Shown one piece after another: positions 11,598 to 37,526 of a DNA stretch of 37,526 nucleotides. Each line of letters starts with the position of its first letter. Within the stretch, counting starts at the first letter, position 1. This DNA is from Candidatus Thiosymbion oneisti (GTDB taxonomy: Bacteria > Pseudomonadota > Gammaproteobacteria > Chromatiales > Chromatiaceae). Location: the NCBI RefSeq assembly GCF_900092655.1, contig NZ_FLUY01000088.1, forward strand, positions 1 through 37,526. The letters run 5' to 3'. The notes beneath the pieces were generated by a model that was not told where the DNA came from, did no database searches, and saw only the letters and a program-made list of their open reading frames with translations. The translations under genes were made by a program, and so were the position numbers.

Positions 11598-12510
11598 GAC
11601 TGGTCTCTAGGATGCGCCAAACCAGGGCATCGAAATCCAGCCCATGGGCCTGGGCGGCCATGGGTACCAGACTGTGGTCGGTCATGCCGGGCACGGTGTT
11701 CACCTCCAGCAGGTACGGCTGCCCACCGCCGTCGAGCATAAAATCCACCCGCCCCCAGCCGGCGGCGCCGACCGTATCGAAGGCATCCAGGCACATGGTC
11801 TTAAGGCATGACTCCGACTCGGCATCCAGGCCGCAGGGGCACAGGTAACGGGTGGTATCGGCAAGATATTTGGCCTCATAGTCGTAGAAGGCACGCGGCG
11901 TCTCCAGGCGGATCAGAGGCAGGGCCTCGCCGTTCAGGACGGCGCAGGTATATTCGGGACCCTTGATCCAGCGTTCGGCAAGGACCAGGGCATCGTACTG
12001 CGCCGCTGCGCGCCAGGCCTTGACCAGCGTCTCGGGATCGTCCGCCCGTGCCATCCCGAGGCTGGAGCCCTCACGGGCCGGCTTGATCATGAGGGGGAAA
12101 CCCAGGGCCCCTGCCTGCGCCAGGTCCGCTTCCTGCCGCAATAATGCGAAGTCCGCGGTCGGCAGACCACAACCCTGCCACAAGCGCTTGCAACGGTATT
12201 TATCCATCCCTAAGGCCGAGCCTAACACCCCCGAGCCCGTGTAGGCTAACCCAATGGTCTCGAGCGCACCCTGGATCTGTCCATCCTCGCCGCCGCGACC
12301 GTGGAGGATGATAAACGCCCGCGCAAATCCACCGCTACCTAGCTGCTCCAAGGCACCGGTCTGCGCCGGGTCCAGTCCATAGGCGTCCACCCCTTGACGT
12401 ACCAAGGCCGTCAACACGGCACCACCACTCTTGAGGGAGATCTCACGTTCGGCCGACTGTCCGCCCAGGAGCACGGCCACCTTGCCGAACTCGTCCGCCT
12501 GCGAGGTCAT
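11575..12510 (-). CDS. ddlB: D-alanine--D-alanine ligase
   Basis: An ATP-grasp ligase that makes the D-Ala-D-Ala dipeptide for MurF. The ATG at 12508-12510 (MTSQADEFGKVAVLLGGQSA) overlaps the murB stop as ATGA and gives 311 aa, the family size; the longer open frame upstream is murB in another phase. Visible landmarks are GGQSAEREISLKSG, HGRGGEDGQIQGALE, MIKPAREGSSLGM and the final VNTVPGMTDHSLVP. The murC-murB-ddlB-ftsQ-ftsA-ftsZ order is standard. Confidence 0.96.
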   Translation of the reverse strand: MTSQADEFGKVAVLLGGQSAEREISLKSGGAVLTALVRQGVDAYGLDPAQTGALEQLGSGGFARAFIILHGRGGEDGQIQGALETIGLAYTGSGVLGSALGMDKYRCKRLWQGCGLPTADFALLRQEADLAQAGALGFPLMIKPAREGSSLGMARADDPETLVKAWRAAAQYDALVLAERWIKGPEYTCAVLNGEALPLIRLETPRAFYDYEAKYLADTTRYLCPCGLDAESESCLKTMCLDAFDTVGAAGWGRVDFMLDGGGQPYLLEVNTVPGMTDHSLVPMAAQAHGLDFDALVWRILETSLGETSLE

Positions 12511-13415
12511 GACCCCCAACCCCCGACCCGACACACCTCGGGCGTCAGGCGCACACCGCTGGTACGCGCCACCTCTGACTGTACTCGTTCGATGAGTCGG
12601 ATGATGTCCCACGCGCTGGCGGTCCCCATGTTGACGATGAAGTTCGCATGCTTTTCCGATACTTGCGCACCGCCCACACACAATCCTTTCAGACCTGCCG
12701 CCTCGATGAGCCGTGCGGCATGGTCGCCGGGAGGATTCCGGAACACCGAGCCGCAGCTCGGAAGCCCGATCGGTTGAGCATGTCCCCGCCGCTCGAGTAG
12801 ATCATGGATGCGCTCCAGGCTGGCCGCGGCATCCCCCGGCTCCAGCGCCAGCTCCGCCCCCAAAAACCACTCGCCCGGCGGACCCTGGACCCGGCGGTAA
12901 CCGATGCGGAAGTCCTTCGGCAGACGTTCACGCAGCTCGCCCCGGCGGTCGATGGTGAGCACGCGCCCGACCCGGTCCCAAGTCTCTCCCCCATAGGCAC
13001 CGGCATTCATGGCCAGGGCGCCGCCCATGGTGCCGGGGATCCCGGCCAGGAACTCCACCCCGGTGAGTCCGAGCCTGGCAGCGAAGCGCGCCACCTTGGC
13101 GCAGGAGACCCCGGACTCGGTCCGGATCCCACGCTCCCCGACACGCCTCAAGACACTCAAGCAACCCTGGGTCTGGATCACGGTACCGGCAAAACCCGCG
13201 TCGCTCACCAGCAGGTTGCTGCCCAGCCCGAGCCAGAACACCGGCTCGGTCGGATCCAGGCCACGCAGAAAGGCCGCCAGATCGGCGGCATCCGCTGGCC
13301 GGAAAAACCGGCGTGCCGGTCCCCCCACTCGCCAGCTGGTGTGACGGGCCAGCGGCTCGTCTACGCGCAGCTCGCCGCGGAGGGGTAATGAGGCTTTGGC
13401 CGGGTCGCTATTCAT
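12507..13415 (-). CDS. murB: UDP-N-acetylenolpyruvoylglucosamine reductase
   Basis: A FAD enzyme that reduces enolpyruvyl-UDP-GlcNAc to UDP-MurNAc. The start ATG 13413-13415 (MNSDPAKASLPLRGELRVDE) gives 302 aa. The frame is open further upstream, but that part is the GAACCACGG palindrome and is not MurB. FAD-binding blocks WLGLGSNLLVSDAGF and GTMGGALAMNAGAYGGE, the catalytic SCGSVFRNPPGDH and the Glu in AQVSEKHANFIVN are present (type I MurB). No good ribosome site precedes it. Instead its ATG overlaps the stop of the CopG-like ORF upstream (ATGA), so its translation may now depend on that ORF. Confidence 0.95.
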   Translation of the reverse strand: MNSDPAKASLPLRGELRVDEPLARHTSWRVGGPARRFFRPADAADLAAFLRGLDPTEPVFWLGLGSNLLVSDAGFAGTVIQTQGCLSVLRRVGERGIRTESGVSCAKVARFAARLGLTGVEFLAGIPGTMGGALAMNAGAYGGETWDRVGRVLTIDRRGELRERLPKDFRIGYRRVQGPPGEWFLGAELALEPGDAAASLERIHDLLERRGHAQPIGLPSCGSVFRNPPGDHAARLIEAAGLKGLCVGGAQVSEKHANFIVNMGTASAWDIIRLIERVQSEVARTSGVRLTPEVCRVGGWGS

Positions 13416-13645
13416 GGGTATTCTTTGGAACCACGGATGGACACGGATAAACACGAGTTGTGATCTGTGTTTATCCGTGTCCATCCGTGGTTCTTATCTG
13501 CTGGATAGTACCGGTGTTGGGACGATACATTCACCTGGAACCTTGCATCTGTTTGTTCTCCGAACTCCGTAGCATCATGGTCATCCCAAAATGCCCCGAT
13601 CTCTTGGTAGGTGCCGGCATTTGAAACTGGGGTTTTAGTTGGCAT
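13412..13645 (-). CDS. CopG-family antitoxin-like protein with altered tail
   Basis: This 77-aa reading frame begins MPTKTPVSNAGTYQEIGAFW and continues DDHDATEF to SSQHRYYPAD, the pattern of CopG/BrnA-type antitoxins that normally end shortly after the RYYP motif. The last 25-30 residues are encoded by the palindromic repeat at 13428-13493, so the native end was replaced when the repeat landed. Its ATG overlaps the end of a BrnT-like remnant, and its TGA overlaps the murB start. Whether it still binds DNA or a toxin is unknown. It is clearly foreign to the dcw cluster. Confidence 0.6.
   Translation of the reverse strand: MPTKTPVSNAGTYQEIGAFWDDHDATEFGEQTDARFQVNVSSQHRYYPADKNHGWTRINTDHNSCLSVSIRGSKEYP
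13428..13493. repeat. Perfect 27-bp inverted repeat (CCACGGATGG type)
   Basis: Arms 13428-13454 and 13467-13493 are perfect inverted copies with a 12-base loop; the core is ACCACGGATGGACACGGAT. A related copy starts at about 37494 and runs to the window end. This family of short repeats is scattered in many proteobacterial genomes. Here it lies directly upstream of murB and inside the antitoxin-like ORF. As RNA it would form a very strong hairpin. Confidence 0.9.
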
Positions 13646-13790
13646 ATCTACGCCTTTCTTTCTCTGACATGTCTTTGGCTGAAACGATAATAGCTCGTTT
13701 ATCCCGCGTATACACGAAGAATACGCTTAATATCGGTACTTCCTGTTTTTCATTCCCACCGAAGGTGAAAATCAAGATAAAGCAACCTGT
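13635..13790 (-). pseudogene. BrnT-like toxin, C-terminal remnant
   Basis: In the frame ending TAA at 13635-13637 one reads VPILSVFFVYTRDKRAIIVS then AKDMSEKERRRYAN, the typical end of BrnT-type toxins (VYT...IISAR...ERRRYE). The stop overlaps the ATG of the CopG-like ORF, the usual toxin-antitoxin layout. No start codon or N-terminal half exists: upstream the frame runs into the end of the ankyrin gene in another phase and closes at a TGA near 13798. The left half was apparently lost when the ankyrin module arrived. Confidence 0.5.
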
Positions 13791-14935
13791 TGGTTCTCAG
13801 GGGTGAGCACCGATAACAACTCCGGCTTGTCGTCCGGGACGCACTCATAAGGCAGGACGCCGCGCTTGCTAGCTAGATCGGTACGCGCGCCATATTTCAG
13901 GAGCAGACGGACGTTCTTCTCGTTCCCAAGACTAGCGGCATAGTGCAACAGGCTCCGACCACGAGGGCTGGAATGGTTCGGATCCGCGCCATGGGTCAAC
14001 AGGAACTCCGCGATCTCCGTGCAACCCCGCCCCACGGCATACCACAAAGGCGGCGCACCATTATGAGCTTTCGCGTCGATATGCCGATTCAGGGGAAGGA
14101 GTAAGCTGGCGATTTCCAGGGAACACCCGAAGGGAATCCAGTGCCAAACGGTGAAACCCTTACTGCCGACATGGAACGGATTGGCACCCCGTTCCAGCAG
14201 GAGCTTCACCATATCCAGGTCGCCTTCAGCGGCGGCCAGGAGTAACAGGCTATCGCCGTCGGCATCGGTCGTATTAACATCCGCCCCCCCGGCCAGAAAA
14301 TCTTCGACCTCTTTGACACGCCAATTGCTCACCGCATCGATCAGTCGCTCGGTATCTCCCAGTCCGTCTTCGGGGATGAGCTTCAGCAATAACTCCTCCT
14401 TATCGTCCGGGACGTATTGACAAGGCAGGGCACCGCGTTTGTCCTCTACATCAATCCGCGCACCATATTTCAGGAGTAGACGCACCCCTTTCTCATTCCC
14501 ACGAGCCGCCGCGTCATGCAATAGGGTCCGACCGTTATCGTCGGTGGAGTCCGGGTCCGCGCCATGGACCAACAGGAACTCCGCGACCTCCATGCAATCA
14601 TCCATCAGGGCGTACCCCAAAGGTGTTATGCCGTCGTAATCCTTCAAGTCGATATGTGGATTCAGGGGGAGCAGCAAACGGGCGATTTCCAGGGAACATC
14701 CATAGGCGGCCCAGTGCCAAACGACGAAGCCGTCACTCCCCACATGGAGCGGATCGGCTCCCCGCGCCAGCAGGAGCTTCACCATCTCCAGGTCGCCTTC
14801 ACCGGCGGCTAGGAGTAACAGGCTATCGCCGTCGGTATCGGTGGTATCGACGCTTGCCCCACGGGCCAGAAAGCCTCTTACTTCCTCGATACGCCCATTG
14901 TTCACCGCATCAATCAGTCGTTCGGTATCTTCCAC
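13772..14935 (-). CDS. Ankyrin-repeat protein, internally duplicated (candidate immunity protein)
   Basis: A 387-aa soluble protein made of two copies of one unit of about 191 residues (3-193 and 194-384), each starting DTERLIDAV and ending near PDDK-ELL. Each unit has about five ankyrin repeats, with blocks such as GDSLLLLAAGEGDLEMVKLL and NGRTLLHDAAARGNEKGVRL. No signal peptide or membrane segment is seen. The start is GTG 14933-14935, 21 bases after the stop of the 141-aa toxin candidate, so they are probably co-transcribed. Ankyrin proteins are known immunity proteins in polymorphic toxin loci. That role here is inference from position; a general binding protein is the alternative. Confidence 0.85.
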   Translation of the reverse strand: MEDTERLIDAVNNGRIEEVRGFLARGASVDTTDTDGDSLLLLAAGEGDLEMVKLLLARGADPLHVGSDGFVVWHWAAYGCSLEIARLLLPLNPHIDLKDYDGITPLGYALMDDCMEVAEFLLVHGADPDSTDDNGRTLLHDAAARGNEKGVRLLLKYGARIDVEDKRGALPCQYVPDDKEELLLKLIPEDGLGDTERLIDAVSNWRVKEVEDFLAGGADVNTTDADGDSLLLLAAAEGDLDMVKLLLERGANPFHVGSKGFTVWHWIPFGCSLEIASLLLPLNRHIDAKAHNGAPPLWYAVGRGCTEIAEFLLTHGADPNHSSPRGRSLLHYAASLGNEKNVRLLLKYGARTDLASKRGVLPYECVPDDKPELLSVLTPENQQVALS

Positions 14936-21477: not shown

Positions 21478-22347
21478 TTAATCACCCTTAAGCACAAAAA
21501 CAACAGGAATGATAACCAAGTACATGGCAGTAATGACTAGTATGGAAGCCCCGCCCATTGACAGAAAAGGTTTTTTCTCGACATCAAAAAACCGCTTGAA
21601 TTTTGTTATGAATAGGTCGATGGGCTTTCGCGTAGAGAGCAAAATTCCACTTAAGATGTAGATCCAAACCCAAACTGATGTGAAGAATGTTGAATAAAAC
21701 CAAATCCCAAATGATGGCTGACTCCCACCCGGAGATGAGAGCGGTAATACGTTTGATAAAAACCCCGCCAAGAATCCATCAAAAGTAATTACGTCCACGA
21801 ATATTATGAATATTAACAAAGCGATCAGAGCTATTAAGAAAGTGGCAATAAAATCCAGGACGATCAATGCGATATGTTCTGGCATGGATGTGCTGTTTCT
21901 TAACAGGGATATGATGTAGCGACTTTCAAGCAGTGAAAGATAATCAGGTATTAAATTCAAACTAACCGAAGCTATAAGCATCCATCCAAACACCTCTGTG
22001 TTGAACCTATCTATAAAAGCCATGAATTGCTCAGGTCTGAGATACGCCCAAAAGAGAGTCATCACCAAAACGGCAATCAATGATGCGATTGCCGATCGAT
22101 AAAAGCATCTCCATGAAAGGTGGCGGGTTCCAAAAATAGTATCGAACGCCTCGGAAAATGTATCGGCCCACCTGATGAAGTGATTTTCCAAGTCTAACCG
22201 CAATAACCATTGTGACACGCTTTTTTTAGCTTCTGGTGCTGCAACTCCTTCAATACGATCAAAGAGCTTCCAAATACCGCCAGTCACTATTACCCAGGAA
22301 CCCAATAATGCGGCTAAGCTGACAATATCATTTTCAATGATATTCAT
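21478..22347 (-). CDS. Multi-pass membrane protein, function unknown
   Basis: A 289-aa protein starting MNIIENDIVSLAALLGSWVI. About six hydrophobic segments can be seen, near residues 8-25, 85-105, 118-135, 160-190, 215-240 and 262-286. A loop of about 30-80 has mixed charge. No known motif was recognised. It is clearly more AT-rich than the dcw genes and is framed by inverted copies of a CCCACGCTCC repeat, so it is probably imported. It follows the heptad-repeat gene, whose 3' end overlaps its start region. Its role is unknown. Confidence 0.75.
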   Translation of the reverse strand: MNIIENDIVSLAALLGSWVIVTGGIWKLFDRIEGVAAPEAKKSVSQWLLRLDLENHFIRWADTFSEAFDTIFGTRHLSWRCFYRSAIASLIAVLVMTLFWAYLRPEQFMAFIDRFNTEVFGWMLIASVSLNLIPDYLSLLESRYIISLLRNSTSMPEHIALIVLDFIATFLIALIALLIFIIFVDVITFDGFLAGFLSNVLPLSSPGGSQPSFGIWFYSTFFTSVWVWIYILSGILLSTRKPIDLFITKFKRFFDVEKKPFLSMGGASILVITAMYLVIIPVVFVLKGD

Positions 22348-22864
22348 GATAAGCGATGATTTCTCGTTCCCACGCGCTGCGTGGGAACGCGGAAGCTCCG
22401 CGCCGCGGAGAAATCAGGCCTGTGTCCATCATGCGCTCGTTCCCACGCTCCAGCGTGGGAACGCCATCTTGTCCGCTCCAGCGGACTATGCCCCGCAGTA
22501 CCGACAGGCATTGGCTATGGTCTACCTGGTTGCTTAGCGACGCTGGAGCGTCAAGATCCCTCCTCCGTCGGGACAAGTTTGCGAGCTTCTGATCCTCGGT
22601 ACTGAGCCTCTGATCCTCGGCGCCGAGCTTCTGATCCTTGACATCGAGGTTCTGATCCTCGACGTTGAGCTTCCGAACCTGGACGTTGAGGTTCTGATCC
22701 TCGGTGCCGAGCTTCTGATCCTCGGCGTCGAGGTTCTGATCCTCGGTGTCGAGCTTCTGATCCTCGGCACCGAGCTTCTGATCCTCGGCATCGAGGTTCT
22801 GATCCTTGGCGTTGAGCTTCTGATCCTTGGCGTCGAGGTTTCGATCCTCGATCGCCACTTCCAT
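22334..22864 (-). CDS. Heptad-repeat coiled-coil protein, tail derived from repeats
   Basis: The ATG at 22862-22864 (MEVAIEDRNLDAKDQKLNAK) follows GGAGG of the preceding gene's end. Residues about 4-94 are thirteen 7-residue units of the form L-x-x-E/K-D-Q-K/N, an ideal left-handed coiled coil with Leu at one core position. Residues after about 100 are translated from the CCCACGCTCC repeat block and are probably not functional, so the true length is unclear. It is likely co-transcribed with the 158-aa gene in front, 3 bases away. Expression is not proven, but the repeat keeps one open frame. Confidence 0.55.
   Translation of the reverse strand: MEVAIEDRNLDAKDQKLNAKDQNLDAEDQKLGAEDQKLDTEDQNLDAEDQKLGTEDQNLNVQVRKLNVEDQNLDVKDQKLGAEDQRLSTEDQKLANLSRRRRDLDAPASLSNQVDHSQCLSVLRGIVRWSGQDGVPTLERGNERMMDTGLISPRRGASAFPRSAWEREIIAYHEYH
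22363..22558. repeat. CCCACGCTCC palindrome block, right arm
   Basis: Contains CGTTCCCACGC-GCGTGGGAACG palindromes at about 22365-22389 and 22438-22463. It also carries the inverted counterparts of the left block's CCATCTTG, CCGCTCCAGCGG and GACGCTGGAGCGTCAAGAT units, with about 50 extra bases before the last. Together with 21359-21463 it encloses the membrane-protein gene. Confidence 0.8.
22583..22855. repeat. 21-bp minisatellite, 13 units
   Basis: Thirteen consecutive units of 21 bp of the type GAGCTTCTGATCCTCGGCG(C/T)C, without any indel. Units alternate loosely between GAGCTT and GAGGTT starts, which changes Lys to Asn on the minus strand. The period equals one coiled-coil heptad, so copy number can change without breaking the frame. 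Confidence 0.92.
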
Positions 22865-31446: not shown

Positions 31447-31849
31447 GGTATGAATTGCTTTATTTCTTGTTCGTCAAAACCTAAGGGGTAAGGATTCAGG
31501 TACAAGATATTGTGCAGCGGCACTTAAAAATAACAAGATACTGTGTTTTCATCAAGCGGAGGAGAATATCGGCGCGGCATTGCGACGATGTAGGAATGGT
31601 GGAAATGGGATGGACGGTTAGTGCCGCTTACACCCAAGCCGGAGGGGTGCAGATAGCTGAGGGCTCCGAAGTCGGAACCCCGAAGCCTGGTTGCTGGTCT
31701 GAATTACCGGCGGACCTACTGCAAGCTCGTCACGGCATTCCCCGACGAAAACCTCTGCGTTCGGCACCCCGAGCGATCGTGATGCCCGAAGGCTTCGTTT
31801 GTTCCGCATGCAGTCCCCGAGGACGCTGACCGTCATCCCGAGAGGAAAA

Positions 31850-32224
31850 GTGGGAGCCGGCCTGTAAGCCGGGTTCTGTCGTGGACAGCCATTCATCTGG
31901 GATGCACGTCGCCGTGCACCTCAAGCGACCTACCCGGGAACCCGTGCGGGCCGCACGTCGCGGCCTGAAGCCGCCTGTTCCCCTATTTGGTCTTGCTCCG
32001 GGTGGGGTTTACCCTGCCGCCGATGTTGCCACCGACGCGGTGCGCTCTTACCGCACCATTTCACCCTTACCGATCCGGCTTAAAACGGATTTAGGCGGTA
32101 TATTTTCTGTGGCACTTTCCGTAGGCTCGCGCCCCCCAGGCGTTACCTGGCACCCTGCCCTGCGGAGCCCGGACTTTCCTCCCCCGCGACAACACCGCGG
32201 GAGCGGCTGCCCGGCCGACTCCCA
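31850..32224 (-). ncRNA. rnpB: RNase P RNA (class A)
   Basis: The minus strand shows the class A landmarks. P1 is formed by GGGAGTCGGCC at the 5' end (32213-32223) and GGCCGGCTCCC at the 3' end (31850-31860). CR-I is GAGGAAAGTCCGGGCTCC, followed by the CAGGGTGCCAGGTAACGCC region. The joining part is GGGTGAAATGGTGCGGTAAG with AGAGCGCACC, and GAACCCGGCTTACAGGCC closes the RNA. It matures tRNA 5' ends. The length of about 375 nt is normal. rnpB upstream of mraZ is common in Gammaproteobacteria. Ends are estimated to within a few bases. Confidence 0.96.
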
Positions 32225-34697: not shown

Positions 34698-35516
34698 TCA
34701 GTTGGACTGCAACGGGACGGGGTTATCATAGGGAGAAAGTAGGCTGCCCTCGCGGCATTGCCGCAGACGCAGGTCGAGCAGATCAAGCAGCTGCTCATGG
34801 GCACCGATGTAATCCGCCTGCACAATCACTCGGTTCGGATACTGCTTTGTAAGCCGTTCCACCTGCCGCTCGATGCGTTTTATCAGCCGTCCGGTAAACA
34901 GGTAGTAGGGCAACACGATCATCTGGCTGGCACCGAGCAGATCGAGTCGCTGCACGACCTGTTCGAGTCGCGGGAAGCAGACGTCGGTAAAGGCGGGCAG
35001 CACCAGCTCATGGTGGGTGGTCTCGTAGATCCAGTGGGCCATCTTGGCGACTTCGCCGGTGGCTTCGATATCCGACGCGCCCCGCGCCAGCACCACCACA
35101 CCGGTGGTGCGGGGGTCCGGCATGGCCAGCCCCACCATGGTCTGGTGTAGACGATAGCGGAGGGCCTTTAACAGCTGGTCGGTGGTTCCCAGATGGCACC
35201 CGTAGCGGAACTCGACGCTAGGATGGTGCGCCCGCGCCGAGGCGATGGCCTGGGGGATATCATGCTTCACATGACTGGCGGCATTCAGGACCAGGGGCAG
35301 CACGAGCAGGCGCCCGCCCCCATCGCCCAACTCCGCAACGGCCTGCTCCAAACCCTGGGGCAACAACACCGGGGCGTGCTCGATCCAGCACACCCGGACC
35401 GGGACCCCGGAATGGCGTGCTTGCCAGAGACCGGCGAGCTCTTCTACCTCTCGGTTGCCCTCGTTGCCCGGATCCCGGGCGCCGTGGGCGACTAGCAAGA
35501 CGACTTCTTTTGTCAC
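34698..35516 (-). CDS. cbiX: Sirohydrochlorin cobaltochelatase (long CbiX)
   Basis: Inserts cobalt into sirohydrochlorin in the anaerobic B12 route. The protein has two chelatase halves: the first begins KEVVLLVAHGARDPGNEGNR with the metal-binding His, the second begins TGVVVLARGASDIEATGEVA near the middle. The C-terminal text VLPYYLFTGRLIKRIERQVE is typical. The GTG start at 35514-35516 with GAGGA upstream gives 272 aa and is preferred over a TTG at 35573, which would overlap the neighbouring gene. It is the last gene of the cobalt operon. Confidence 0.88.
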   Translation of the reverse strand: MTKEVVLLVAHGARDPGNEGNREVEELAGLWQARHSGVPVRVCWIEHAPVLLPQGLEQAVAELGDGGGRLLVLPLVLNAASHVKHDIPQAIASARAHHPSVEFRYGCHLGTTDQLLKALRYRLHQTMVGLAMPDPRTTGVVVLARGASDIEATGEVAKMAHWIYETTHHELVLPAFTDVCFPRLEQVVQRLDLLGASQMIVLPYYLFTGRLIKRIERQVERLTKQYPNRVIVQADYIGAHEQLLDLLDLRLRQCREGSLLSPYDNPVPLQSN

Positions 35517-35559
35517 GCGTCGTTGTTCCTCGGGTCGTTCGTTGGCTACCAATGGCGGC

Positions 35560-36060
35560 TCAATGGTCGGCAACCGTGATCGTCTCTATGTCTTGGATAA
35601 CCTCGCCGTCTACCGCCAAGTCTTGGTGCGAATTCGAGTTGAGGGTTACCCGAATCGAATGGGTCCCCGGCGTAGGTTCCGGGATGTGGAACCAACGCCC
35701 ATATACGCGAGCGATCTTTTTCCCGTCGAGATAAAGGTGGGCATGGCCTTCGCCTGCAATATGCTCGGAGCTCGCGTGTTGCGGGGAAAAACGAAAGTTT
35801 TTTGTGACAATCTCCAGGTTCCTGCCCGCCATGCCATCTTTATGGACGATCAGGTCGACCTGAGGAATCGCGCTATCCCTGGAGAGGTCGAGCCTTCCAT
35901 GGTCATGTGGGCGATGCGGGGTGTGCTGGAGATGCACCTGGGGAAGCTGCTCACGGGCATCCTGCACGGCCATATCCCCCCGCTGGTTGCCGAGCAGATG
36001 GCCCGCGAGAAAGGCAGCGACCGTGACCAATACCGCCACCGTTCTTTCCCTATCGCCCAT
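35560..36060 (-). CDS. Membrane-anchored His-containing protein of the cobalt operon
   Basis: 166 aa from MGDRERTVAVLVTVAAFLAG, with an N-terminal membrane segment or signal anchor (about 7-25). A His-rich stretch follows (LPQVHLQHTPHRPHDHGRLD, about 39-58). The C-terminal domain (about 80-166) has NLEIVTKNFRFSPQHASSEH, GEGHAHLYLDGKKIARVYGR and a beta-rich end. I recognise the latter domain as a periplasmic family seen near metal transport genes but know no proven function. It lies 9 bases after cbtA and 43 bases before cbiX, so a role in periplasmic cobalt binding is plausible but inferred. Confidence 0.75.
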   Translation of the reverse strand: MGDRERTVAVLVTVAAFLAGHLLGNQRGDMAVQDAREQLPQVHLQHTPHRPHDHGRLDLSRDSAIPQVDLIVHKDGMAGRNLEIVTKNFRFSPQHASSEHIAGEGHAHLYLDGKKIARVYGRWFHIPEPTPGTHSIRVTLNSNSHQDLAVDGEVIQDIETITVADH

Positions 36061-36069
36061 GCCAGTGCC

Positions 36070-36963
36070 CTACGGATTCGAGGTAGAGCCGATCGCCTTT
36101 ACCCGTTCCTGGCGGTCGGCCAGCTTGAGGAATGTCCAGGCGCCGAGGCCGCCGAGGAGCAGCCAGAAGACCACATTGATCAATGCCGCACGCCAGATGA
36201 ATGCATCCGCCAAGGCCGCTGGGGCCGTGCCACCGTGTATTTCCGGTTGGGGGGCACCAAGTAGATGCGGGGCGACGACGAGGACGGCACCGACGATCTT
36301 CCAGACCCATGGCCGTTGCAAGACGATAAGGGCCAATCCGACCGCCGAGCAGAGTGCCGTCAGCAACCACCAGCTCTGCCGCGAGACCAGATCCGCGGCG
36401 AAGCTGCCCGGAATCTCAGGGGGCAACCCTAAGGCGGGGAGGGCGAAAAAGGCGGCATAACCGCCCAGCCCCCAGAGCAGACCTTCCGGCCATTGCAGGC
36501 CCGGGCGTAGTGAGAAAGCGGCCGCCAGCAAGAGACTAAAGGCTATCGCGATCAAAATATTGGCTACCAGCGTCGAGCCGCTACGTTGCCAGCCGTTCTC
36601 CGGTCCCCAATCCGACTCCGCATGCTGGAAGCTATGGATACGCCGATACAATCGTGAGAAGACACCGCCGGCACCGGTCATCGACCCAGTCGCCTCGGAC
36701 TGCCCGGCGTGGGTATGTCCATCCGGTCCTGGCATATGCCCGTCCGGTCCGTGGGTATGTCCACCCGGACCATGGATATGGCTAGCCGATCCGTGAGTAT
36801 CACCGGAGCCATGAGTGTAGCCGGACCCATGGGTATGACCACCCGATTCATAGGTCTCGGCTTCCAGGATGATGGGTACCGTCACCAGGAGCTGTAATCC
36901 GGTCACGACCAAGCCGACCAATACACCGACCATACAGGAAGCGAAAACGATGTTTCTGAACAT
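36070..36963 (-). CDS. cbtA: Cobalt transporter subunit CbtA
   Basis: A membrane protein of the B12-linked CbtAB cobalt importer. The start ATG 36961-36963 (MFRNIVFASCMVGVLVGLVV) gives 297 aa; the open frame further upstream has no homology. After the first membrane segment comes a loop (about 41-86) with eleven His in THGSG/HTHGP-type repeats, then four to five further membrane segments. LRPGLQWPEGLLWGLGGYAA and LGLPPEIPG are typical of CbtA. The stop of cbtB lies 19 bases upstream. The His-rich loop is longer than I would expect for the family. Confidence 0.92.
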   Translation of the reverse strand: MFRNIVFASCMVGVLVGLVVTGLQLLVTVPIILEAETYESGGHTHGSGYTHGSGDTHGSASHIHGPGGHTHGPDGHMPGPDGHTHAGQSEATGSMTGAGGVFSRLYRRIHSFQHAESDWGPENGWQRSGSTLVANILIAIAFSLLLAAAFSLRPGLQWPEGLLWGLGGYAAFFALPALGLPPEIPGSFAADLVSRQSWWLLTALCSAVGLALIVLQRPWVWKIVGAVLVVAPHLLGAPQPEIHGGTAPAALADAFIWRAALINVVFWLLLGGLGAWTFLKLADRQERVKAIGSTSNP

Positions 36964-36982: not shown

Positions 36983-37165
36983 TCAATGGCACGGAAAGGC
37001 CGCGGTGTGGCGGGCATCGTGGGCGGCGTTGTGCGCCGCCAGGGGTGCGAACCCCGCCCCGTACAGGATCACCAGGCCCAATAGGGCGGCGGACAAGGCC
37101 GGCCACAGATGGGTCCGCCGTTGGGCATAGGCACGCCCTTTCATGTCTGATGTGAGACTAGACAT
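36983..37165 (-). CDS. cbtB: Cobalt transporter subunit CbtB
   Basis: 60 aa with one membrane segment (about 22-42) and the C-terminal metal motif HNAAHDARHTAAFPCH, which is diagnostic for CbtB. The ATG 37163-37165 has GGAG at 7 bases. It opens the operon cbtB-cbtA-166 aa-cbiX. Upstream, 37203-37222 forms a 7-bp stem hairpin (GGCCGTC/GACGGCC) in the leader. I looked for a cobalamin riboswitch there and do not see one. Confidence 0.95.
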   Translation of the reverse strand: MSSLTSDMKGRAYAQRRTHLWPALSAALLGLVILYGAGFAPLAAHNAAHDARHTAAFPCH

Positions 37166-37493: not shown

Positions 37494-37526
37494 GAACCAC
37501 GGATGAACACGGATCGACACGGATGG
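37494..37526. repeat. Start of a CCACGGATG-type repeat
   Basis: AACCACGGATGAACACGGAT and the bases that follow match one arm of the palindrome at 13428-13493 with a few changes. It is cut by the window end. The stretch 37223-37493 before it holds no gene I can support. Confidence 0.7.

Follow-up and report, generated by a model that had tools for sequence, protein, structure and literature searches.

How does the CbtAB importer take hold of its metal? CbtAB, a predicted cobalt importer, is not known to have an ATPase or a metal-capture step. The locus described here bears on that question through a third gene, which directly follows cbtB and cbtA and which encodes a small histidine-rich protein that we call the partner. 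Our favoured reading, held with moderate confidence, is that the partner acts as an accessory, membrane-anchored, periplasmic Co(II)-binding subunit of the CbtAB importer. Below we set out the evidence for this reading alongside four alternatives that make different sense of the same observations.

The cbt gene row and its surroundings

The window (the whole stretch of DNA that was analysed, 37,526 nucleotides) carries at its right end four minus-strand genes in a row:

36983..37165, minus strand: cbtB, 60 amino acids, one transmembrane segment (residues 26-44), C-terminal histidine motif HNAAHDARHTAAFPCH; PF09489
36070..37017, minus strand: cbtA, up to 315 amino acids, about six transmembrane segments in a transmembrane scan; PF09490, TIGR02458
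35560..36060, minus strand: partner, 166 amino acids, third gene after cbtB-cbtA; open reading frame whose domain recurs behind cbtA
34698..35573, minus strand: cbiX-like chelatase gene, up to 291 amino acids, two CbiX stretches; PF01903, E 6.3e-42

By profile, the first two genes encode members of the CbtAB families. CbtA passes both PF09490 (E 1.3e-43, 150 bits against a cut-off of 30.7) and NCBIfam TIGR02458 (233.2 bits, cut-off 182.9); CbtB, whose C-terminal histidines are visible, passes PF09489 (E 5.4e-16, 58.9 bits, cut-off 27) and falls slightly below the cut-off of NCBIfam TIGR02459 (63.0 bits against 64.4). The window's CbiX likewise passes its Pfam cut-off. An inner ATG of cbtA at 36963 gives a product of 297 amino acids (36070-36963, minus strand), which matches the end point in an earlier note on this DNA. 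The genes seen in the window's cbt cluster do not include a transporter ATPase. Upstream sequence is short, as the window is an entire contig of its genome and only 361 bases lie 5' of cbtB; a search for a sigma-70-like site between 34400 and 37526 of the window found none. The earlier note had read the placement of the partner before cbiX as a sign of periplasmic cobalt capture ahead of import and insertion. That order is real in the window but is not general, in that CbiX matched at 0 of 33 cbt-linked loci elsewhere (by a single-sequence profile), and the two genes were seen adjoining only in the window. The CbiX family, moreover, also includes iron and nickel chelatases.

Several further features of the window were recorded. 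A 21-bp tandem repeat of 12.8 copies (22582-22850) lies inside the minus-strand open reading frame 22334-22864 and encodes LDAEDQK-like seven-residue units. Copies of the repeat ACCACGGATGAACACGGAT occur at 13430-13491 and 37496-37524 (five matches, none expected by chance), some of them where the contig ends, 5' of cbtB, and others at the N-terminal end of the long minus-strand open reading frame 12507-13484, which by eye is MurB-like. A bacterial RNase P RNA of class A (31849-32222) is on the same strand as a gene cluster that we take to be of the division and cell-wall type, and an open reading frame resembling ankyrin repeats by eye (13772-14935) lies within the cell-wall gene cluster.

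The literature consulted treats the system as predicted and as consisting of two proteins. In the excerpts available, CbtAB is termed a predicted cobalt transporter (PMC2667541), CbtA is described as lacking experimental confirmation (PMC4771312), and overexpression of cbtAB in Methylobacterium gave no growth increase (PMC2773004). The same kind of excerpt from seven papers (PMC2667541, PMC2773004, PMC4771312, PMC13108547, PMC3621897, PMC8123684 and PMC7689651) makes no mention of a third Cbt component.

Histidines and predicted fold of the partner

The features relevant to the proposed metal handling are the following:

35986..36042, minus strand: predicted N-terminal transmembrane anchor of the partner, residues 7-25; hydropathy 1.74, model helix 4-19 of low confidence
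35899..35934, minus strand: histidine-bearing linker of the partner, residues 43-54 (H43, H46, H49, H52, H54), from histidine counts
35572..35865, minus strand: C-terminal beta-sandwich domain of the partner, residues 66-163 (56-163 in the AlphaFold2 model), from the model and a 93-sequence alignment
35737..35751, minus strand: EGHAH with H106 and H108, a nearly invariant HxH in the 93-sequence alignment
36709..36837, minus strand: histidine-rich first loop of CbtA, residues 61-103 of the 315-residue frame, 11 histidines, from shuffles and the underlying DNA repeat

With one transmembrane segment predicted at its N-terminus, the partner is probably membrane-anchored, as had been proposed. The C-terminal domain with GEGHAHLYLDGK (residues 103-114, 35719-35754) is present as described, and the domain was aligned over 93 sequences. 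Across all gene contexts H106 is kept in 93/93 sequences and H108 and H145 in 92/93 each; the 39 cbt-linked sequences all retain these three, and 38 of the 39 also have H125, which is not the common residue at that position among fusions of the domain to the copper chaperone PCu(A)C. With all contexts pooled, nine alignment columns are retained in 93% or more of the 93 sequences, and the HxH and the later histidine belong to them. The partner matched no Pfam family above cut-off and no NCBIfam family, a PDB sequence search returned nothing of note, and when nine relatives were run against Pfam the sole strong match came from one fusion, in its PCu(A)C portion.

The histidines ahead of the domain call for a more measured account. 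The partner does carry a histidine cluster of its own in the linker, as the earlier note said, and this recurs in relatives; its density, however, is ordinary, as 948 of 5000 shuffles of the partner give five histidines in 15 residues. The cluster is unremarkable taken alone because the whole protein is so histidine-rich (15 in 166 residues). What recurs is better seen by context: in 39 cbt-linked proteins the 42-residue stretch ahead of the domain contains six histidines at the median (range 2-9), against medians of two in seven YHYH-linked proteins, one in 19 other proteins and one in 27 PCu(A)C-fused proteins (counts anchored inside the domain match; L125, which is without the motif, was omitted).

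The first loop of CbtA, by contrast with that linker, is exceptional by the same measure. The reported eleven histidines in 43 residues were borne out at residues 61-103, a count that none of 5000 shuffled versions of CbtA reached. The repeats described there are also real; the loop is a run of GHTHG-type units of about seven residues because the DNA beneath it, at 36708-36800, is a 21/42-bp tandem repeat. At 94 residues with 13 histidines, the window's loop segment is the longest among 139 CbtAs compared, one of which exceeds it in histidines (15 versus 13). A model of CbtA alone had a pLDDT of 53 and was set aside.

AlphaFold2, run on the window's partner plus a relative (L002), gives a confident all-beta domain, with mean pLDDT of 76-96 in ten-residue blocks from residue 61 onwards. 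Fold searches with Foldseek and VIA-align place it among many FN3/Ig-like sandwiches (best Foldseek E 1.3e-3; best structural alignment Z 9.0, rmsd 2.4 over 80 residues). This predicted placement is uninformative on function, and equally so is the want of a metal-binding fold in the match list. H106 and H108 should face the same side, since they are on the same strand two residues apart, and we infer that they form a joint metal site with H145, probably joined by H125.

A quite unlikely alternative is that the domain binds an organic ligand or chelated cobalt, or serves as a protein-protein module, with its histidines playing a structural part. Such a role would suit a fold as common as the FN3/Ig-like sandwich, which bears no metal signature, and it would suit gene contexts (YHYH, PEBP and perhaps DoxX-like) that share no metal theme; it sits poorly with the placement of the HxH and the later histidine among the nine most-kept columns over all contexts, and with the alignment of these histidines to histidine columns of a second family, DUF4399.

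DUF4399 carries the pattern GHHHL. Profile alignment of our domain with DUF4399 (PF14347) by hhalign gave a probability of 96.1 and a score of 52.3, with the HxH and the late histidine in register, whereas 60 column shuffles reached at best a probability of 3.7 and a score of 18.5 and the reversed profile scored 15.2. The score is 30.3 with the histidine columns masked and 37.8 using the cbt-linked rows alone. The DUF4399 rows were chosen by the motif GH[HAF]H[LI] (25 of 30 fetched loci), which favours the HxH columns. By hmmscan, PF14347 was absent for nine of nine members at E up to 10, a search in which the HMMER filters drop most matches above about 0.1. Altogether, a distant kinship of the two families is likely on these profile comparisons, the motif filter helping part of the signal. 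The window's genome itself encodes a DUF4399 protein (L172), and among the papers listed for DUF4399 no function of it was seen.

Gene contexts, descent and control of the partner

In the samples, the domain is uncommon outside one family. In evenly drawn subsets of genomes, a profile of nine relatives found it in 11/398 genomes of the phylum and in 5/248 of the window's class (the window's genome included in both), and in 73/345 of an alphaproteobacterial family (f68), which named plasmid and MAG matches suggest is probably Rhodobacteraceae in the broad sense. All 22 plasmid records found by tblastn are alphaproteobacterial by name, and the domain was not found in the viral contigs searched. 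A single-protein search of 38 close relatives found it in the window's own genome only. As cbtA, too, occurs among those 38 relatives only in the window's genome, the window's cbt operon was probably gained.

We examined up to 5 kb on either side of 85 matches, scoring neighbours by profile; for DUF1636, CobW, CbiX, YHYH, PEBP and PCu(A)C these profiles were built for the purpose, each on a handful of sequences or a single one, and misses are possible. The 85th match (L130) was counted as without the domain: behind its cbtA, L130:5001-5120 encodes a transmembrane segment and GHDHALDH followed by a stop, such that the domain is lost and a histidine stub is kept. A plasmid locus with a broken frame (L011) was excluded from the domain set. 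A candidate relative in Paenibacillus (L003) was rejected as well, its 31-residue match overlapping what by eye appears to be the frame of an ABC permease and being taken as chance.

Of the 84 domain loci, 33 place the domain immediately after cbtB-cbtA with the strand shared, 27 carry it as a fusion to PCu(A)C, five adjoin YHYH genes and 19 are other. Co-occurrence with cbtAB, which the earlier note had proposed to check, thus holds for 33 of the 84; the 27 fusions and a further 24 loci of neither kind stand outside it. The cbt-linked loci have cbtB at 33/33, DUF1636 at 24/33 and CobW at 7/33 within about 5 kb, and the plasmid and MAG loci L002, L004, L006 and L010 likewise carry cbtB, cbtA and the partner. 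Many marine bacteria have the partner gene after the importer in this way. The window is the sole cbt-linked case seen in its class (the other matches were checked within 1.5 kb on each side, and L134 and L135 within 5 kb).

The remaining contexts are diverse. One 'other' locus has the domain gene beside a CobW gene (L087), and three more (L094, L104 and L116) fall amid the PCu(A)C fusions in the domain tree. In one group of the 'other' loci the domain comes after a membrane protein that matches DoxX weakly, as at L088:5464-6762 (E 5.4e-4, below cut-off), and at L124:4965-6428 it is fused to a membrane protein without a Pfam match; by eye, both share a stretch of the AHV[RK]WF type. Recurring neighbours of the 27 PCu(A)C fusions (L092-L125) resemble, by eye, genes for branched-chain amino acid ABC transporters, and neighbours of a plasmid-borne fusion (L008) are annotated as such, an odd home for a copper chaperone.

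These contexts bear on what metal the partner would handle. Metal choice is not derivable from the domain, because 27/84 loci are PCu(A)C-fused and 24/84 are YHYH-linked or other. It has been suggested that a domain found mostly beside copper or nickel genes, or without any metal gene, would undo the cobalt proposal; this description half fits the superfamily and does not fit the subfamily to which the window's partner belongs. We consider it very unlikely that the partner handles copper or some other metal and shares the operon only because metals compete. The 27 PCu(A)C fusions lend that idea what appeal it has, but PCu(A)C, the one copper gene sought there, did not score near the 33 cbt loci, where the recurring neighbours are DUF1636 and CobW, and the riboswitch of the cbt loci senses B12.

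That riboswitch is a regular feature of the operon. An Rfam cobalamin riboswitch lies upstream of cbtB at 32 of 34 cbt loci (the 33 with the domain and the stub L130), being absent at L071 and L076. Four of five plasmid and MAG loci have one (L002, L004, L006 and L010), the exception being L005, where cbtB was unscored. Locus L010 is a 12.2-kb mobilizable plasmid of Pontibrevibacter on which cbtB, cbtA, the partner and DUF1636 follow the riboswitch; it is an instance of cobalt import on a small plasmid, CbtAB being a predicted importer. By comparison, 0/16 non-cbt domain loci have a cobalamin riboswitch (16 of 51 scanned; 2 + 14), and 19/20 partner-less cbt loci have one (20 of 67 such f68 loci scanned). 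Since it is equally frequent in partner-less loci, the riboswitch marks the cbt locus and not the partner, whose tie to B12 is solely through the shared operon. According to an excerpt of a review, coenzyme B12 represses cbtBA 43-fold (PMC8123684).

The window departs from this pattern, in that no cobalamin riboswitch was found in it or in the rest of its genome, and its operon must therefore be controlled otherwise. We take the riboswitch to be usual and not defining for CbtAB, so that the window stays in the family. Despite lacking the riboswitch, the window's genome has CbiC, and no CbiM, the one other transporter type sought, was found in it; CbtAB could accordingly be the genome's cobalt importer.

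Control by B12 also weighs on a second alternative, which we regard as fairly unlikely: that the partner works in the periplasm as a buffer or a gate, keeping excess Co(II), or competing Cu or Zn, off CbtA and thereby giving selectivity or less toxicity, instead of feeding the importer. Cobalt import can indeed harm. In Methylococcus at 1 uM CoCl2, as reported in the excerpted text, knock-down of cbtB improved growth, which the authors ascribe to cobalt toxicity, and guides against cbtA were enriched (PMC13108547); the PCu(A)C fusions of the domain suggest several metals besides. Yet if the partner is co-transcribed behind a B12 riboswitch, it would be made at B12 scarcity, when the cell needs uptake more than protection.

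In the domain tree of 93 sequences, three changes suffice for the cbt label, whereas shuffles need 30.1 on average. The window's partner is one of 39 sequences on a fork where 38 are linked to cbt genes, with support of 82/83, which is not strong; a starred set of 56 around the window adds seven YHYH-linked and ten other rows to this fork. The proposed link of the partner to a cobalt operon therefore stands at the level of the subfamily, while the domain overall is not cobalt-specific. The CbtA tree (139 sequences, quick method, SH-aLRT support; duplicates L269, L270, L159, L167 and L168 dropped) puts the window's CbtA in a set of 36 (SH-aLRT 98) comprising 32 from other families, three partner-less f68 CbtAs and itself. 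The main f68 CbtA clade (103 rows, SH-aLRT 98) holds the other 38 partner-linked CbtAs and not the window's. The window's partner, for its part, is nearest the cbt-linked partners of that main clade. As its CbtA is outside the clade and its partner kin to the partners within it, the partner accompanies two lineages of CbtA. As far as the trees go, this favours a functioning pair over neighbours frozen in place, and a single transfer of the partner gene would account for the pattern.

The partner is optional, being absent from most CbtAB loci sampled: 67 of 99 f68 CbtA places above cut-off have no domain match within about 3 kb on each side, contig permitting. Conversely, CbtA is not over-represented in genomes that carry the domain only at other places (6/42 versus a background of 66/314), and no cbtA lies within 5 kb of L079, a gene of the partner type whose genome gave no CbtA match. 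A chance or inherited neighbourhood without function could draw on this absence behind 67/99 f68 CbtAs and on the confinement of the other 38 partner-linked CbtAs to one clade, which implies few independent events. We nonetheless hold it to be extremely unlikely, seeing that the partner keeps its place right after cbtA, with about 34-36% full-length identity to the window's protein and also on plasmids, and that in the window it accompanies another CbtA lineage.

The loop of CbtA varies within these lineages. In the f68 CbtA clade with the partner-linked forms (58 rows; the clade lists for this contrast were taken from the CbtA tree by hand), all 13 partner-less sisters have at least four loop histidines (median 6), as against 0 of 38 partner-linked CbtAs (maximum 2). 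This single contrast looks like a shift of the histidine cluster from the transporter to the partner, as judged from the sequences. A general rule, by which a histidine-poor CbtA loop goes with a partner, was considered and fails: fewer than four loop histidines are also found in 40/48 other partner-less f68 CbtAs and in 6/7 partner-less or stub rows within the partner clade, and the window contradicts the rule outright, having both a histidine-rich loop and a partner. A Mann-Whitney comparison of loop histidines gives p 6.9e-6 with kinship ignored, and both medians are 2.

A proposed capture subunit and its relation to known systems

The gene order, the recurrence of the partner behind cbtBA, the riboswitch of relatives and the conserved histidines are observations; from them we infer that the partner binds metal, which metal this is, how the protein is oriented, that it touches CbtA and which way the ion passes. 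On the favoured reading, the partner as an accessory subunit of CbtAB, the N-terminal helix would anchor the protein in the inner membrane, and its flexible histidine-bearing linker and the histidine site of its FN3-like beta-sandwich would bind Co(II) in the periplasm. That site would draw H106 and H108 from the HxH strand; H145 would come from the loop that follows a later strand, and H125 would probably join them. The partner would then hand the ion to the histidine-rich CbtA loop and the CbtB histidine tail, and CbtA would move it inward for cobalamin synthesis. If this is true, a co-inherited periplasmic histidine-site protein would supply the metal-capture step of CbtAB, and the role would be the first function for a domain that lies below the Pfam and NCBIfam cut-offs and is maybe kin to DUF4399.

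A broader scheme is possible but doubtful: the domain may represent an undescribed superfamily of periplasmic histidine-site metal chaperones (FN3-like, HxH...H...H), related to DUF4399 and reused in several settings. It would serve cobalt as a module anchored by a transmembrane segment alongside CbtAB, copper as a fusion to PCu(A)C, and other metals next to YHYH and possibly DoxX-like proteins. The histidine cluster would, in one clade of CbtA, have shifted from the transporter loop to the partner.

Among known systems, the domain differs from DUF4399, which retains GHhHl and HFGkGQt. The copper chaperone PCu(A)C (PF04314), a metal chaperone by name, is fused to the same domain in 27/84 loci; the partner differs from it in having no PF04314 match, as do the relatives searched save one (1/9 members, a fusion, matches). 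A likeness of role only can be drawn to the extracytoplasmic helpers of ECF-type Ni/Co importers (CbiN, and NikK and NikL of NikKMLQO), likewise small extra membrane components; neither CbiN nor NikL matched in an hmmscan of the partner. NikK and NikL are named as additional components of a Ni/Co importer in the excerpt available (PMC2667541). The closest comparison is with CbtAB itself (PF09490, PF09489), to which the window's CbtA and CbtB belong by profile and whose loci in relatives follow a cobalamin riboswitch. CbtAB is already described, as two proteins in the published excerpts, and to these the window adds a third: a new, unnamed component of a known type of system.
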